Assembly: GCF_025602895.1 (NCBI RefSeq)
Contig: NW_026516226.1
Span: forward strand, 1-64,000
DNA from: Polychytrium aggregatum
Taxonomy: Eukaryota; Chytridiomycota; Chytridiomycetes; Polychytriales
DNA length: 64,000 nucleotides
Direction: 5' to 3'
Shown: one piece after another, positions 41,515 through 47,153 of the stretch
Numbering within the stretch: the stretch's first letter is position 1
Layout of the letters: each line of letters starts with the position of its first letter
Notes under the pieces: generated by a model
Told to the model about the DNA's origin: nothing
Databases searched by the model: none
What the model saw: the letters and a program-made list of their open reading frames with translations, nothing else
Made by a program: the position numbers and the translations under genes

Positions 41515-43142
41515 TTAGGCAGATAGCCCGGGAGCCTTGGCATCGCTCTTGAGGGCATAGATGAGCTGCCTCATTCTGGTGGTGTCTCGTCCCTTGGTCA
41601 CGTTCGTCTTGGTCTTGTCATCGGTGGACTTTTTGTCCTTCAGCTTGGCAGGATTGGATGAGGTGTTGCTGACAGCGGCCGAAGTTTCGATGAGCTTGAC
41701 GGCGCGTTCCTGGGATAAGAAGCGGAGGCGTAGCGACGATTCCAATAAGTAAAGACAGCGTTGATCCCGAGGCCATAGAAACGACAAGAGATTCACGCAT
41801 TGTCCAGGACGGAGCGTAGAGCCGCGCTCCTCGGGTGCCGGCAGGCGAATGGACGTTTGTGATCCGATATCGATAAAGACTGCTCAAGACCCATGGCTGG
41901 ACCACCAATAGCGATGGAGATCATCCAAAGCACAGGCGGGGAACATAGCTCCGCCACTGGAAGTAAAGAGTCGAATGCTCGGGGGCGCCGTGCCTCGCCG
42001 TAGTGCCTATCAGCCTGCATCGCTCATACGCCTGCTTTGAGGTTGACACCGTGCGGATCAGAAGATACCGTACCCAGACACTTCCGTTTGTTGCCAGTTT
42101 TTGTTGCGCCTCAAGCAGTGCTGACTCGGCTTCCTTGTTCTTCAGCACACCCTTGGCCTTCTTGTCGTTGTATTCGGCATAGAAGCGCTCCAGCGACTCC
42201 TTGGCGGCCTTGAGCTTCAGCTCGTGCTTGGTCTGGGCCTTGGCATCGCGCTCGGCAATTTTCGCACTGAACTCTTCACGCCATTGACTGAGAGCCGACG
42301 TCGATCAGAAAGTGTGGCGGGCGAGCGTAGAGTCGCGGGAATCATAGTGAGCGGCCAAGAGACTCAGTGGCTGTGAGCATGTTAAATTCAACGGCAGATG
42401 GTAGGGCACCTACCGGATGACTTCAGGCTCAACTTCGGGCAGCTTGGACACAAGCGAGGGAGTGCTGGTGCCGAACGACAGCCCAGCAGCGGTAGTATCA
42501 AAGGCGCCCGAGTCGGCAACAGGAGGGAAGCTGCTTTCGAAGGAGGTGGGGGCAAGCTGGAAGCATCAAGGTTGAATATGGGGTTAGCACTTGGCAGCGG
42601 CTCCGCATCGGCTTGGCAGCAAATGGTGATGGGAGGAAGCCCAGAGAGGAAAGGCGCGCAGCAAGGTCGATGGACCGAGGAGTAGCGCCGCGACGAAGCC
42701 GGGAGGTTCAAGCCGCCGCTGGATAGAACGACAGCGGCAGACGAAATATCCAAAATCCGGGATGCAGAAGACGAGCGGGCAACAAGTCTGTGCACGACAG
42801 AGCATCTACCTCGCTGGGTTGAGAGGCGAAGGCGTCGAATCCGGTGTTGTCTTGAGCAGGAACAGGAGCAAACAGATCCGAGCTGCCCTGGGGAGCGGGA
42901 GCAGCTGAAGCGAACAAGTTCGAGGTGGACGGCGGAGCAGCAACCGGGGCCGAGGCGAAGATGTCGGCCGACGCCGTCTCAACAGGTGCGGCCATGGGGT
43001 TGCCAAAGAGGGCGGCATCGTTTCCCAGGATGGCTTGCTCACGCGCAAGGAAGTCGGCTGTGGGGTCGGAGGGGTCGGCGAAGAAGTCGGCGGCGCCCGA
43101 GTTGGAGGGCGCGGGGGCTGTGAAGTCTCCGAATTCAGACAT
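41515..43142 (-). CDS. CLC1: Clathrin light chain
   Basis: Regulatory subunit of the clathrin triskelion on coated pits and vesicles. Exons 42810-43142, 42414-42556, 42074-42287 and 41515-41709 join in phase, giving 294 residues. The N-terminus MSEFGDFTAP and DPTADFLAREQAILG are family hallmarks. A Pro/Ala/Ser-rich linker follows. The heavy-chain-binding helix is EVEPEVIRQWREEFSAKIAE, then RDAKAQTKHELKLKAAKESL and ERFYAEYNDKKAKG. The tail ERAVKLIETSAAVSN with DTTRMRQLIYALKS is the conserved C-terminal end. Length is normal. Its promoter overlaps the region 3' of the Fanzor gene on the same strand, so read-through from Fanzor could run into this gene. Confidence 0.95.
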
Positions 43143-43584
43143 GGCGAGTGTGGGTGCAGTTGGTCGGGAGGCAGGAGTGGACGGCTGGATGATGGACGAC
43201 GGACGGCAGCGGCGATGAGGGGAGAGAGTCCGGGGCTGACGAGGTTGATGTGGGGCAAAGGCCGAGAACGACAGGGGCAACACTATGAAAAAAATTCTTG
43301 TTAAAAAAATGGGCGAGAACGAAAAAACGCGCTCTCGGAGCCACCTCGGTCGGCGAGAAGAGCAGTCTCTGGCGAGAGACCCCCGAGGGAAGGCGAGAAG
43401 CCTCTCGCCGTCACACGCACACACACTTTGCACAAGGGAGTCAAACACCTCCCATCGACCATCCCAAGAGGGATGGCAACCCCGAAGTGGACTGCCCAGA
43501 ATATGGGCGACCCGGCATCCACTGTCGAAATGCACAAGGAACAGTGCGAGATACTTACAGTCTATCCAGAAATAAACGGGACAG
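43143..43584. other. Intergenic region between Fanzor and clathrin light chain
   Basis: Carries the Fanzor 3' flank, where guide RNAs of this nuclease family are usually encoded, and the clathrin light chain promoter. Perfect inverted repeats occur at 43392-43409, 43459-43476 and 43494-43508. CTCTCGG/GCGAGAG words cluster at 43330-43410. Confidence 0.6.
43392..43584 (-). ncRNA. Candidate Fanzor guide (omega) RNA region
   Basis: Directly downstream of the Fanzor stop codon, same strand. Reading in the transcript direction, three perfect hairpins follow one another: 5-bp stem GCCCA/TGGGC with 5-nt loop (43494-43508), 7-bp stem CCATCCC/GGGATGG with 4-nt loop (43459-43476), and 7-bp stem GGCGAGA/TCTCGCC with 4-nt loop (43392-43409). 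TnpB and Fanzor guide RNAs are transcribed from the 3' flank of the nuclease gene, with the guide reading out of the element. The last hairpin may instead belong to the clathrin promoter. No transcript evidence is available. Confidence 0.35.
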
Positions 43585-46155
43585 TCACTTTCTGGCTTCT
43601 GAAGCCCGCTGACTGACTGTAGGCCCAGCGGGTAGGCCATGGCATTGCACTCCTGTCTTCGTTGGCAATCGAGTGGTTTTGGTTGGTTTGGGAAGCATGG
43701 TCTTTAATACACCCGGCCGATCTCCTGTGGCGATGATCGACTGGCATACCGAGATCATGTTCCTTGAGGCATTGATGTCTCGATCCCACAGCGTATGGCA
43801 GCTTGCACAGCTCCGGACAAAGTGTAGTTTCTCGATATCAAGATGCTCGGGTGACTCAAGTCGCTTGAATTCCCGACAATGTGAGCACACCTGGGATGTG
43901 TTGAACTCGTTCACCGAGCACACATGGATCTTGGAGACGGATCGGTCTGGTGGGCGTCTCTGGTGGTGGTGGAACTGCTCAAAGTACTTGGCGAACCTGA
44001 GTCTCCTGGGACTGGAAGCATATCCCTTCCCCTGTTTCCACGAGGCATTCCCAAAGGCAATCACCACTTCGGTCTCCCTTGGTGCCTGGTCGATGAATTG
44101 CTTGCACATCTCGTGGACAGTGCGCTGTCGCTTGCTGTGGAGATCGAGTCGCTTGAATCGCCGTCGCCGGGTCAGGCTGAAGTACAGCTGCTTGTCCAGC
44201 ATGTCTCCATCGAACACATGGCGAATGTATCGCAAGAAAGAAGGCACTCCAGGGATCTTGGGACTTGGTGTGGTGCTCATCCATTGCTGCAGACCAAGGA
44301 TCTTGTGGGTGCTCTGGATCCACTTGGTCGCCTGGGTGGTGCCACATCGATGCTGGTACTCCTTGTTGGAGAACGACACGATCTTCTCGTTGGCACGCTG
44401 TGCCTTGGTCACCTTGACACCGTCTTGCTCCTGGATGGATGGTTGACCGGGTGCCCGAATGACAGCGGTGAAGATCGATCCCACACCAGGGTCGATCCCA
44501 ATCCATGTGGTCCGAGAGTCGTCAATGGGACCGACCCTGGTCTGGATCCTCTGCTCGGGAGTGAGTGCGCTCGCCTTGTCCACGGTTTTTGGCTTGGCAT
44601 CAGGGTCCTTCTTCTTCAGGATCTTGTACCTGAGCGTGGTGATCGAGCACCCGGCCCCATCGGTGGTGATCTCGCAGCCAAAGAGCTGCTTTCCCTCCTT
44701 CCTGGCACCAAAGAGTCTCGACTCCAGCTTGAAGTTGGTCTGCCAGAAGATCTCTTGTTTTGTGGTGTCATTGACCTTGGTCTTCAGGTCGTCCCACTTG
44801 AGACCAGTGCCAGTCTGGTATCCAAGGATCTCCCACAATGCTTTGGTGTCGAGCTTGATGTACTTGGCTCGGGCATCGCAGAGCGGGACCAAGGTGCACT
44901 GTGCTCGAGGGGCCTTGAGTCTCTTCTTGGTCTGGGCAAGCCGGTCGGCCAGTCGCTTGATCCGCTTCGTGTTGACAGTGATCTGCTTGCACACCTCCTC
45001 GTGCTGGGTCTGGAGTGCGTTGTATTGATCCGACTGCCTACGTTCGATGGGTTGACACATCTCCTCGTTCAGCCGTCCGCGCTCTCCTTTCAGATCATCG
45101 GTATCCCTCACGAGCCTGGGAATGATCATCTTCTGAAAGACCACCATGAAGAGGGCCTCCTTCAGGTGGGTCAGGCGAGAGACCTCACTGGCCAGAATTG
45201 GTACGACTTTGTACAGGTCCTGGTGGCTTTCGTACCGAAACTCATACAACTGGTCGGCATGGTGGGCGAAGGATTTTCTCAGATCAACGAGGAGTGTCTT
45301 GGAGAGGGGATTCTCCATCAGCTTGACACAATCGTCGACGTGTGTGTGTCGTTTGACATCCTTCGGAGCAACCAGGACCAGACTGCAGTATTGACGGAGG
45401 AGAGACCAGTATCGATCCACGATGTGGGTCTCGCAGTTGACTGCATAGGTCTTGACAGCCAAGCCAAGGACCTGTGAGCCAGTACCCTTTGGGAGGGACA
45501 CAGGAGGCAGGATACACGTCTCACTCCATGCGCTTCGATACATCTCATAGGTGTCGATGATGTGCCTGTCTTCTTGGGTCGTGCCTTTCTTGACACTAGT
45601 CATTCCTGTCTGCACCATGTTGAAACACTTTCGAATAAACGAGGGGTCTTTCGACGACACAGTGGGGAGAGTGATGCCCTCGTCCAAGCACCGCCTGAGA
45701 TGCAGCTCCAGGAGACGAGATGCTTCGAACTGGACTTGAGTCATGGCTCGGACAGTCTCCTCGATCTTGTCGTGCAAGGCATCGTTCTTGATGATGGCAT
45801 CGAGGGTGCACTTGACGATCGAGTACTCGGCCTTGGCATACTCGTTGGGGCCACAGTCAGGCAAGGTAGAGCTCCAGAGTGGGTTCTTCTTGGTACACAA
45901 TGAACTGTTGCTTCTGGCATGACCCTCTTCCCCGCACGTGGCACATACAGGGACCTTGGGTGCTTGGCTGACCATTTCAGCGACCGAGGCAGGGCTGCTG
46001 TCGACTCTGGCTGTACACTTCTTGGTGAAGGGTTTGACATGGTTGGTCAGGCCACAGGCACGACACGATTTGATGGTGAACTTCTTGGCCACAGGAGAGT
46101 CATTGGGTGATCCCGGGTCGGGATCGGGGGGTGTCTTTCGTTTGTGGGGAGCCAT
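43585..46155 (-). CDS. Fanzor: eukaryotic TnpB-like RNA-guided DNA endonuclease
   Basis: Intronless, 856 residues from ATG 46155, the first ATG in frame (MAPHKRKTPPD, a basic possible nuclear signal). Two CCHC knuckles of identical spacing C-x2-C-x4-H-x7-C lie at residues 31-47 and 71-87. A long helical recognition region follows, with a coiled stretch near 350-415. RuvC-I is WIGIDPGVGSIFTAVI (Asp 555). The usual RuvC-II strand reads VVIAFGNASW (697-706) with no glutamate. A Glu sits at 750 in VNEFNTSQVCSHC. The zinc ribbon uses Cys 757/760/783/786, and RuvC-III is DRDINASRNM (Asp 793). This is the rearranged catalytic layout described for Fanzors. All acidic residues appear present and no frame break is seen, so it could be active. 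Closest in plan to fungal Fanzor1. Function by family: RNA-guided cutting of double-stranded DNA. Confidence 0.9.
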   Translation of the reverse strand: MAPHKRKTPPDPDPGSPNDSPVAKKFTIKSCRACGLTNHVKPFTKKCTARVDSSPASVAEMVSQAPKVPVCATCGEEGHARSNSSLCTKKNPLWSSTLPDCGPNEYAKAEYSIVKCTLDAIIKNDALHDKIEETVRAMTQVQFEASRLLELHLRRCLDEGITLPTVSSKDPSFIRKCFNMVQTGMTSVKKGTTQEDRHIIDTYEMYRSAWSETCILPPVSLPKGTGSQVLGLAVKTYAVNCETHIVDRYWSLLRQYCSLVLVAPKDVKRHTHVDDCVKLMENPLSKTLLVDLRKSFAHHADQLYEFRYESHQDLYKVVPILASEVSRLTHLKEALFMVVFQKMIIPRLVRDTDDLKGERGRLNEEMCQPIERRQSDQYNALQTQHEEVCKQITVNTKRIKRLADRLAQTKKRLKAPRAQCTLVPLCDARAKYIKLDTKALWEILGYQTGTGLKWDDLKTKVNDTTKQEIFWQTNFKLESRLFGARKEGKQLFGCEITTDGAGCSITTLRYKILKKKDPDAKPKTVDKASALTPEQRIQTRVGPIDDSRTTWIGIDPGVGSIFTAVIRAPGQPSIQEQDGVKVTKAQRANEKIVSFSNKEYQHRCGTTQATKWIQSTHKILGLQQWMSTTPSPKIPGVPSFLRYIRHVFDGDMLDKQLYFSLTRRRRFKRLDLHSKRQRTVHEMCKQFIDQAPRETEVVIAFGNASWKQGKGYASSPRRLRFAKYFEQFHHHQRRPPDRSVSKIHVCSVNEFNTSQVCSHCREFKRLESPEHLDIEKLHFVRSCASCHTLWDRDINASRNMISVCQSIIATGDRPGVLKTMLPKPTKTTRLPTKTGVQCHGLPAGPTVSQRASEARK

Positions 46156-46302
46156 CTGGCGAGAAAATAGCAGCGATGGCTGGTTCTTGTCAGGAACGGA
46201 GCTGGACTTTGGCACCAGACAGCTGATGGTAGTCGAACGGACGGTCGTAGGACGAAGGGGAGTGTATTCAATAGGCTAAGGGCAGGATACAAGAGGCAAG
46301 GT

Positions 46303-46332
46303 GAGGTGCTGGTTCTGAGGCCACAGCACCTC
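46303..46332. repeat. 9-bp inverted repeat upstream of Fanzor
   Basis: GAGGTGCTG and CAGCACCTC flank a 12-nt loop; the match is perfect. It lies 150 bp 5' of the Fanzor ATG. It could be an element end structure, a protein site or part of a 5' leader. Confidence 0.8.
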
Positions 46333-46334
46333 GT

Positions 46335-46342
46335 TTATATCT
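46335..46342 (-). promoter_or_regulatory. TATA-like box for Fanzor
   Basis: GATATAAA on the minus strand, about 180 bp upstream of ATG 46155, inside the small inverted repeat GTTTA/TAAAC (46333-46348). Sequence match only. Confidence 0.35.
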
Positions 46343-47076
46343 CTAAACGCCGTCCTTGTTCGCCGCAGATTTTTCTTCTACTACAAGGGAGATTGGTTAT
46401 CTGCGACGGGGGGAGATTAGATCCGAACGTTTCCCTCGCCCGCCGGGAGGTTTCATGTCAGTGCCTTACCCAACATTGCACATCAAGGAAACAGGACACG
46501 GGTTGGGGCGCCCATGAAACCATCCACCGGGCGTGGGAACGCGGTTCATGACAGTTCTGCCCTTGGGGAAGAAAAATTTTCCTCAAATCCAGCGCATTTT
46601 GGGCTGGCAGAGATGCTCACAGTGGCGTCCTTGATCCAGATCCAGAAACGCATCGCTCGCTCAATCAGTCGTGGGAAGACATCTTGTCAAGGTGAGTCTT
46701 GCCTGATAGCCAAACGATCATGTCATCTCGCTGACACACAGCCACGCTTGACTAGGTTTCCAACCAGAGAGATTCAGATGGTGGTGGTTCTTGTCCGCAA
46801 TCGGAGTGGAGCTTCCAACAATGATACAATTGGTCATTCCTCCACACCAATCGCCCACCACCACCGTCAATCGGCTCAAGGTGATACCAAATGCCGTCAA
46901 CCGACCATGGCCGGATTCCAACTTTTGCTGCATCTTGGTCTACAGCGTGTATTCATATTCGAGATGAGCAGCCGCGAGGGGGCCGGAAAAAATTGAGGGG
47001 CGAAAAGAAGAGCCAGGGCGGGTGTGTGTGTGCGGCCGGATGCATCCGCATTCGATCCAGGCGCATGCCGAGGCGC

Positions 47077-47080
47077 AAAA
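47077..47080 (-). terminator. RNA polymerase III terminator of tRNA-Pro
   Basis: TTTT on the minus strand immediately follows the 3' end of the tRNA gene. Confidence 0.8.
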
Positions 47081-47153
47081 GGGCTTCTCCGGGAATCGAA
47101 CCCGGGACCACTCGCACCCTAAGCGAGTATGCTACCACTGTACCAAGAAGCCC
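47081..47153 (-). tRNA. tRNA-Pro (anticodon AGG), intronless
   Basis: 73-nt cloverleaf on the minus strand. The acceptor stem GGGCTTC pairs with GAAGCCC. The D-arm contains GGTACAGTGGTAGC. The anticodon stem CTCGC/GCGAG encloses loop TTAGGGT, so the anticodon is AGG (proline, CCU-family after A34 to inosine). The T-arm is CCGGG/CCCGG with loop TTCGATT. A-box (TGGTACAGTGG-like) and B-box (GGTTCGATTCC) are intact and a T4 terminator follows. It sits 0.9 kb upstream of the Fanzor gene and 170 bp from the GT34 gene, which reads away. Confidence 0.96.

Follow-up and report, generated by a model that had tools for sequence, protein, structure and literature searches.

The 64,000 nt window that was analyzed (positions 1 to 64,000 of contig NW_026516226.1 of the chytrid Polychytrium aggregatum, assembly GCF_025602895.1) contains an intact reading frame for a nuclease of the Fanzor1 family. 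We propose, with a probability of about 85%, that this gene resides on a non-autonomous DNA transposon with CACTA ends, that it was derived from a captured Tc1/mariner-Fanzor element, that the nuclease is RNA-guided, and that the element is mobilized in trans. The coding potential, the family, the characteristic residues, the ends of the element, its copy number and the mariner relics were established directly.

The open reading frame (ORF) starts with an ATG at position 46155 and ends at 43585 on the minus strand, and neither an internal stop codon nor a frameshift is present (Table 1). A start at a GTG at 46215 would result in a Fanzor with 20 additional amino acids. A preliminary description of the locus had claimed an uninterrupted frame of 856 codons with a GIDPG motif, a four-cysteine zinc ribbon and a DRDINA motif, and all of them are indeed present: GIDPG includes D555, the cysteines are C757, C760, C783 and C786, DRDINA includes D793, and a further acidic residue is E750. 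The proposed Fanzor identity was also borne out. When a profile built on the frame was compared with solved structures, the chytrid Fanzor SpuFz1 from Spizellomyces punctatus (PDB 8GKH), and not another RuvC family, ranked first (E 1.7e-21). The profile was needed to reach SpuFz1, because a simple phmmer search against the PDB yielded only weak zinc-ribbon matches. SpuFz1 was also first in a fold comparison, in which CasPhi-3 trailed by less than 1 Z, and the Pfam family PF07282 (Cas12f1-like TNB) matches the frame with an E value of 3e-9; E values of this size are not expected from chance matches. The metal ligands D383, E541 and D606 of SpuFz1 occupy the same alignment columns as D555, E750 and D793, and E750 is invariant in all 12 aligned sequences, five of which are from P. 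aggregatum. A C-terminal motif of Fanzor1, given in the sections of the source used here as D-X(125,275)-[TS][TS]XX-C4 zinc finger-X(5,50)-RD (PMC3627910), is represented by D555, T753-S754, the four cysteines and R792-D793; it is common to TnpB as well. In the family comparison the protein was nearer to Fanzor1 than to TnpB, Cas12 or Fanzor2. Unlike SpuFz1, it has 856 amino acids, a cysteine-rich N-terminal region and long predicted helices at residues 311-413. Judged from its sequence, the frame belongs to Fanzor1 and its nuclease core is intact.

The genome of P. aggregatum (64,678,306 bases in 418 contigs) was searched for further copies. Scoring covered 53 of the 1504 first-look candidates, which makes all Fanzor copy counts lower bounds. 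The search returned 72 pieces, namely 53 long matches and 19 short ones, which are mostly N-terminal second pieces. There is no stop codon inside 34 of the 53 long matches, and 23 of the 40 copies that were examined contain all motifs in a frame that runs from an ATG to a stop codon and comprises at least 830 amino acids. The same boundaries recur across aligned copies and define an element, here called type A, that extends from CACTATCAATTTTTTCCGG to GAAATTTTTTCATAGTG. Among 41 rows the exact 5' end CACTAT is present in 34 and the exact 3' end ATAGTG in 39. The flanking 3 nt are identical at 20 of 35 listed insertion sites, compared to 3.3 expected by chance; three pairs of these sites have near-identical flanks, and if each pair is counted once, a 3-bp duplication is found at 18 of 32. 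Genome-wide, there are 122 and 151 occurrences of the two end motifs, compared to 0 and 1 of the reversed control patterns. CACTA termini and a 3-bp target duplication are traits of the CACTA (EnSpm) superfamily. Type A shares both features with CACTA (EnSpm/CMC) transposons, but its inverted repeats are short and imperfect, and it encodes no transposase of its own.

The family also contains derivatives. Three elements of 1.55-1.58 kb, and another one with a 1-kb insertion, have a common internal deletion from about codon 10 to about codon 605. In addition, there are three miniature elements (278-295 bp), two of which have nearly identical flanks; about 90 bp remain of their 5' end and about 180 bp of their 3' end. 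No other part is retained as consistently as the 3' tract among the full, the 1.55-kb and the miniature forms. Two loci with the same flanks (L059 and L060) are fold-back derivatives with inverted 5' ends of the Fanzor element and an unrelated spacer. The 5' region of L055, L016 and L039 is broken at about the same place (46858 in the window), and L055 carries about 1 kb of extra sequence. Five deposited gene models (P0001, P0002, P0004, P0005 and P0006) fuse Fanzor pieces with other domains such as F-box, kinase and male-sterility-type domains; these are probably mis-joined models, or possibly exonized fragments.

Five of the examined copies (L032, L034, L037, L038 and L040) represent a different layout, type B. 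In L037 a Tc1/mariner transposase of 325 amino acids (L037:1190-2164; PF13358, E 7.1e-24) is encoded directly upstream of the Fanzor gene. A full transposase frame is also present in L032 and L040, about 140 nt of it are missing in L034, and L038 is cut by the contig end. In the four type B copies that could be read to both ends, the two termini are TA and the inverted repeats are related to each other. Intact mariner-Fanzor elements are thereby present in this genome. At least 123 matches to the transposase family were scored in the genome (of 623 candidates), mostly open frames that are 90-100% identical, and seven of the 123 adjoin a listed Fanzor. Type B matches a type A state at 383 of 389 sites that are polymorphic in type A and has 52 fixed differences at the 1650 sites that are invariant in type A; the ends of the two types are unrelated. 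Inside type A the last codons of the transposase (46684..46642) and the right end of type B, exactly to ...GACTGTA (43556), can be recognized, and there the similarity stops. The transposase, the TA flanks and the repeats of a Tc1/mariner element are represented in the window element by relics only, and therefore it was not filed as a mariner element. The simplest history compatible with these sequences would be a mariner-Fanzor element within a CACTA-ended element, followed by loss of the transposase, and the Fanzor gene has probably switched from a mariner to a CACTA-ended carrier. Empty carriers, i.e., guide-tract sites without the mariner relic, were sought, but the relic was present in all six sites that were read of 88.

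The layout of type B, with a mariner transposase and a Fanzor between TA-ended repeats, is like that of the Tc1/mariner-Fanzor1 elements PGv-1 and PUl-1 (Bao and Jurka, 2013), a described type according to the sections of that source used here (PMC3627910). The type A copy in the window differs from them in that it retains relics of this layout inside the ends of another transposon. The best match by profile and fold, the chytrid Fanzor1 of Spu-1, with its catalytic triad in the same columns, is likewise encoded by a multi-copy element; in the part of the report consulted, Spu-1 has 42 loci with full-length or partial genes and 134 Fanzor-less "ghost" elements that retain the 3' module (PMC10432273), in line with the consistently kept 3' tract of the P. 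aggregatum forms. For SPu-1, putative TA duplications and 33-bp repeats are given in the consulted part of Bao and Jurka (2013; PMC3627910), in contrast to the CACTA/TAGTG ends, the 3-bp duplications and the internal mariner right end of the type A carrier. In the literature searched, which comprised openly licensed papers, no CACTA-ended carrier of a Fanzor was found; among the matches for Fanzor and EnSpm, a paper on a green alga was listed. The element belongs to a known broad class, the transposon-borne Fanzor1 genes, but we did not find its carrier type and its internalized guide position described in the literature searched. Fanzor1 genes are known from several transposon types. P. aggregatum contains both the donor layout (mariner-Fanzor) and the recipient layout (CACTA-ended with relics) in one genome, which makes the carrier switch directly testable. 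The same genome has many intact ORFs and many Fanzor-less derivatives, and about twenty intact sequence variants are at hand for a comparison of the enzymes. A question that this raises is the source of the guide RNA after the switch.

RNA guidance, cleavage and mobilization in trans are what we infer for this system. A Tc1/mariner-type element with transposase and Fanzor would have entered a CACTA-ended element, either by capture or by insertion, and would have lost its transposase except for the last codons, while the Fanzor gene and the mariner right end were retained. The Fanzor protein would bind an omega RNA encoded immediately 3' of its own gene and cleave guide-matching DNA beside a short target-adjacent motif (TAM), and use of an element-bearing template in repair would keep or spread the element. 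The DNA of the element itself would be moved by a CACTA-type transposase acting in trans. In Spu-1 the omega RNA lies at the 3' end of the element and the flank serves as guide, according to the part of the source consulted (PMC10432273). By analogy, the omega RNA of type B would extend from the stop codon to the right end, and its guide would come from the flank. The homologous tract of type A (43655..43556) lies inside the element, and the 20 or so bases that follow it hardly vary among copies. This following tract has 89 genome sites when up to 3 mismatches are allowed, and it contains small deletions in several of the copies. Any mariner-type omega RNA of the CACTA form would thus have a single, fixed guide from within the element. 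Type A may use the internal scaffold, a new scaffold at the CACTA end, or neither of them. The elements have conserved 3' tracts and possible hairpins. The candidate omega RNA folds better than shuffled sequences in some copies; the z values were -1.78 to -4.69 in five copies other than that of the window (-4.69 in L008), and the 3' end module had a value of -1.56. The only match above the Rfam gathering score was a tRNA, which lies outside of the element.

Several results weigh against the proposed reading. The candidate omega RNA of the window copy folds no better than shuffled sequences (z -0.34). The AlphaFold model of the protein is weak, with a mean predicted local distance difference test (pLDDT) score of 58 and a predicted template modeling (pTM) score of 0.36, and values of mostly about 75-85 in the RuvC core. 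The full-frame test was failed by 17 of the 40 examined copies, three of them by a motif variant alone. No CACTA transposase was present in the copies read. The genome has 29 matches to PF02992 (Transposase_21-type), 28 of them over the cut-off (three only together with neighbors), and a word search of four 3.2-kb PF02992 loci retrieved none of the end sequences of the element.

The ORFs of the copies form an apparent mosaic. Among the examined copies eight insertion sites occur on two contigs each; no paper on diploidy and heterozygosity in Polychytrium was found in the openly licensed literature searched. The window site and its counterpart on contig C416 have 3 mismatches over the 3002 bases compared outside the element, but 119 in the ORF. 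Six of the eight contig pairs have 65-160 ORF differences, and at 610 of the 675 differences in these six pairs both states are also seen in other copies. For 27 unique loci the linkage (r2) is 0.60 at 1-5 nt; it has decayed to 0.08 by 21-40 nt, to 0.06 at distances of 41-160 nt and to about 0.04 at larger ones, compared to a permuted level of 0.039, and the four-gamete rule indicates 145 events. The presence of an optional 362-bp stretch upstream of the ORF is weakly linked to its neighbors (r2 0 to 0.25). The diversity per 120-nt block is about 2.5-15% in the ORF and about 1-3% in most of the 5' untranslated region (UTR), the 362-bp stretch and the 3' end. Two tracts deviate from these low values, namely the outermost 5' end with about 8% (46996..46880) and a tract at 46639..46554 with about 6%. 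This pattern looks like intense exchange among copies, while local mixing during consensus formation could mimic much of it, so that the odds are near even. It may well be, with slightly less than an even chance, that the mosaic is an assembly artefact, i.e., that the long-read consensus mixed copies and that paired contigs are one sequence assembled twice. The near identity of the paired flanks and the loss of almost all linkage by about 40 nt, a scale that local consensus choice could produce, are in agreement with this view. It is at variance with the two of eight contig pairs that are identical or nearly so within the ORF. In addition, the pairs agree at the variable 5' end (0.06 of the level of unrelated copies) and not at the 3' end (0.53), which would not be expected from a symmetric edge effect; other 5' blocks are intermediate between agreement and disagreement (0.00 to 0.56). 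Mixing also cannot create the diversity at the sites itself, which is about 8% in the ORF and 1-2% in the 362-bp stretch and the greater part of the 5' UTR. A gypsy-like gag tract (L037:6760-7380) has at least 40 copies with 99-100% identity (578 candidates), apparently a very young retrotransposon expansion, and because all of these copies are that similar the family was uninformative as a control for mosaicism. As a quite speculative extension, the capture could have internalized the end that specifies the guide, leaving all type A copies with one fixed guide against members of the family instead of variable flanks, so that cutting of siblings and repair would generate a self-recombining gene pool. 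Such a self-targeting guide would explain the mosaic ORFs, the loss of almost all linkage by about 40 nt, and ORFs that differ at one site while its flanks are unchanged. If the mosaic is real, it offers a natural case for studying a possible role of an RNA-guided nuclease as the driver of gene conversion between the copies that encode it. Among the matches listed in a literature search for Fanzor and gene conversion, none was on this subject by title.

The mean dN (nonsynonymous divergence) between copies is 0.055 and the mean dS (synonymous divergence) is 0.18, with a ratio of 0.30, approximate values from a counting method applied to mosaic sequences. For 120 sampled pairs the RuvC and zinc-ribbon parts have regional dN/dS values of about 0.20-0.26. 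Residues 61-130 (45766..45975) in the N-terminal cysteine-rich/linker region have a value of 0.68, which is much higher than in the remaining protein. Residues 84-90 occur as two alternative blocks among the copies. These values bear on the view that the type A nuclease is a decaying passenger with a merely young ORF, and that the element is spread by a trans-acting transposase alone. The existence of Fanzor-less derivatives (0.28 kb and 1.55 kb), the excess of end motifs (122 and 151) over the 53 scored Fanzor matches, a lower bound, and the 17 copies that fail the full-frame test would fit to it. However, the overall ratio of 0.30, the low values in the RuvC parts and the dS of 0.18 point to long constraint, part of which may predate the capture, and we regard a passenger as unlikely. 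A domesticated, host-maintained Fanzor with a function near the clathrin light chain promoter is highly improbable, because many equally intact copies exist elsewhere in the genome and the 119 ORF differences between the two versions of the site are unlike a conserved host gene and place selection at the family level, although the frame is intact on both contigs, the 5' end is immobilized, and the dN/dS of this pair (L001/L002) is 0.45 and thus below 1.

The window copy of the CACTA-ended element has GCCCC in place of CACTA at its 5' end, on both contigs of the site, while its 3' end is intact; no 3-bp target-site duplication is visible. Owing to the loss of the 5' CACTA, transposition would no longer be possible, and this is probably a fixed, immobile copy, which may be catalytically intact but has probably lost its mobility. 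The last base of the element (43281) is 138 nt away from the start codon of the clathrin light chain gene (43142..43140) on the same strand. The preliminary description was thus right about this neighbor, and it did not mention the surrounding transposon; the reading of the gene as a single copy that merely sits among host genes was not supported, since it is a member of a high-copy transposon family. A DNA query with the whole flank gave tRNA matches only.

Table 1. Coordinates of the Fanzor1 gene, its transposon and the neighboring genes in the window
Feature	Position	Strand	Basis
Type A transposon copy, CACTA-like ended, Fanzor-bearing; first five 5' bases CACTA replaced	43281..46996	-	boundaries by copy alignment
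Fanzor1 ORF, 856 aa + stop	43585..46155	-	frame, Pfam, profile and fold matches
Codon D555, RuvC-I acidic residue, column of SpuFz1 D383	44491..44493	-	alignment; SpuFz1 numbering from the part of PMC10432273 consulted
Codon E750, column of SpuFz1 E541	43906..43908	-	alignment; SpuFz1 numbering as above
Codon D793, column of SpuFz1 D606	43777..43779	-	alignment; SpuFz1 numbering as above
Zinc ribbon C757, C760, C783, C786	43798..43887	-	motifs and Pfam match
Relic of Tc1/mariner transposase C-terminal end	46642..46684	-	43 nt, 93%; tblastn E 4.9e-5
Optional 362-bp stretch, TGTC..GACA ends between AGAAC repeats, just 5' of ORF; some copies only	46192..46553	-	copy alignment
Candidate omega RNA scaffold, homologous to mariner-Fanzor stop-to-right-end tract	43556..43655	-	inference only; folding z -0.34
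Relic of mariner-Fanzor right terminal inverted repeat, ending ...GACTGTA	43556..43588	-	comparison with type B
Tract directly 3' of relic right end; putative fixed internal guide if scaffold is used	43533..43555	-	inference; 89 genome sites
3' end module with hairpins, ...TTTTTTCATAGTG; kept in full, 1.55-kb and 0.28-kb elements	43281..43457	-	copy alignment
Clathrin light chain, neighbor; start codon 43140..43142, at least two exons	42068..43142	-	PF01086
tRNA-Pro(AGG), neighbor on opposite side of element	47080..47153	-	

The ends and the AGAAC repeats of the optional 362-bp stretch raised the possibility of a solo long terminal repeat (LTR). The stretch has 19 matches in the genome that are 98-100% identical. 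This reading was dropped because 17 of them lie immediately 5' of one of the listed Fanzor matches, while end motifs place the other two inside elements, so that no source retrotransposon was found. An extra block of 63 nt near 45960, which is present in 5 of 35 type A copies, was considered as an intron and rejected: it is in frame, it is also present in type B and it has GCACCC repeats at its edges, and therefore its absence was read as a deletion. In a collection of viral sequences at least 17 distant loci match the protein, the best segments being 22-42% identical.
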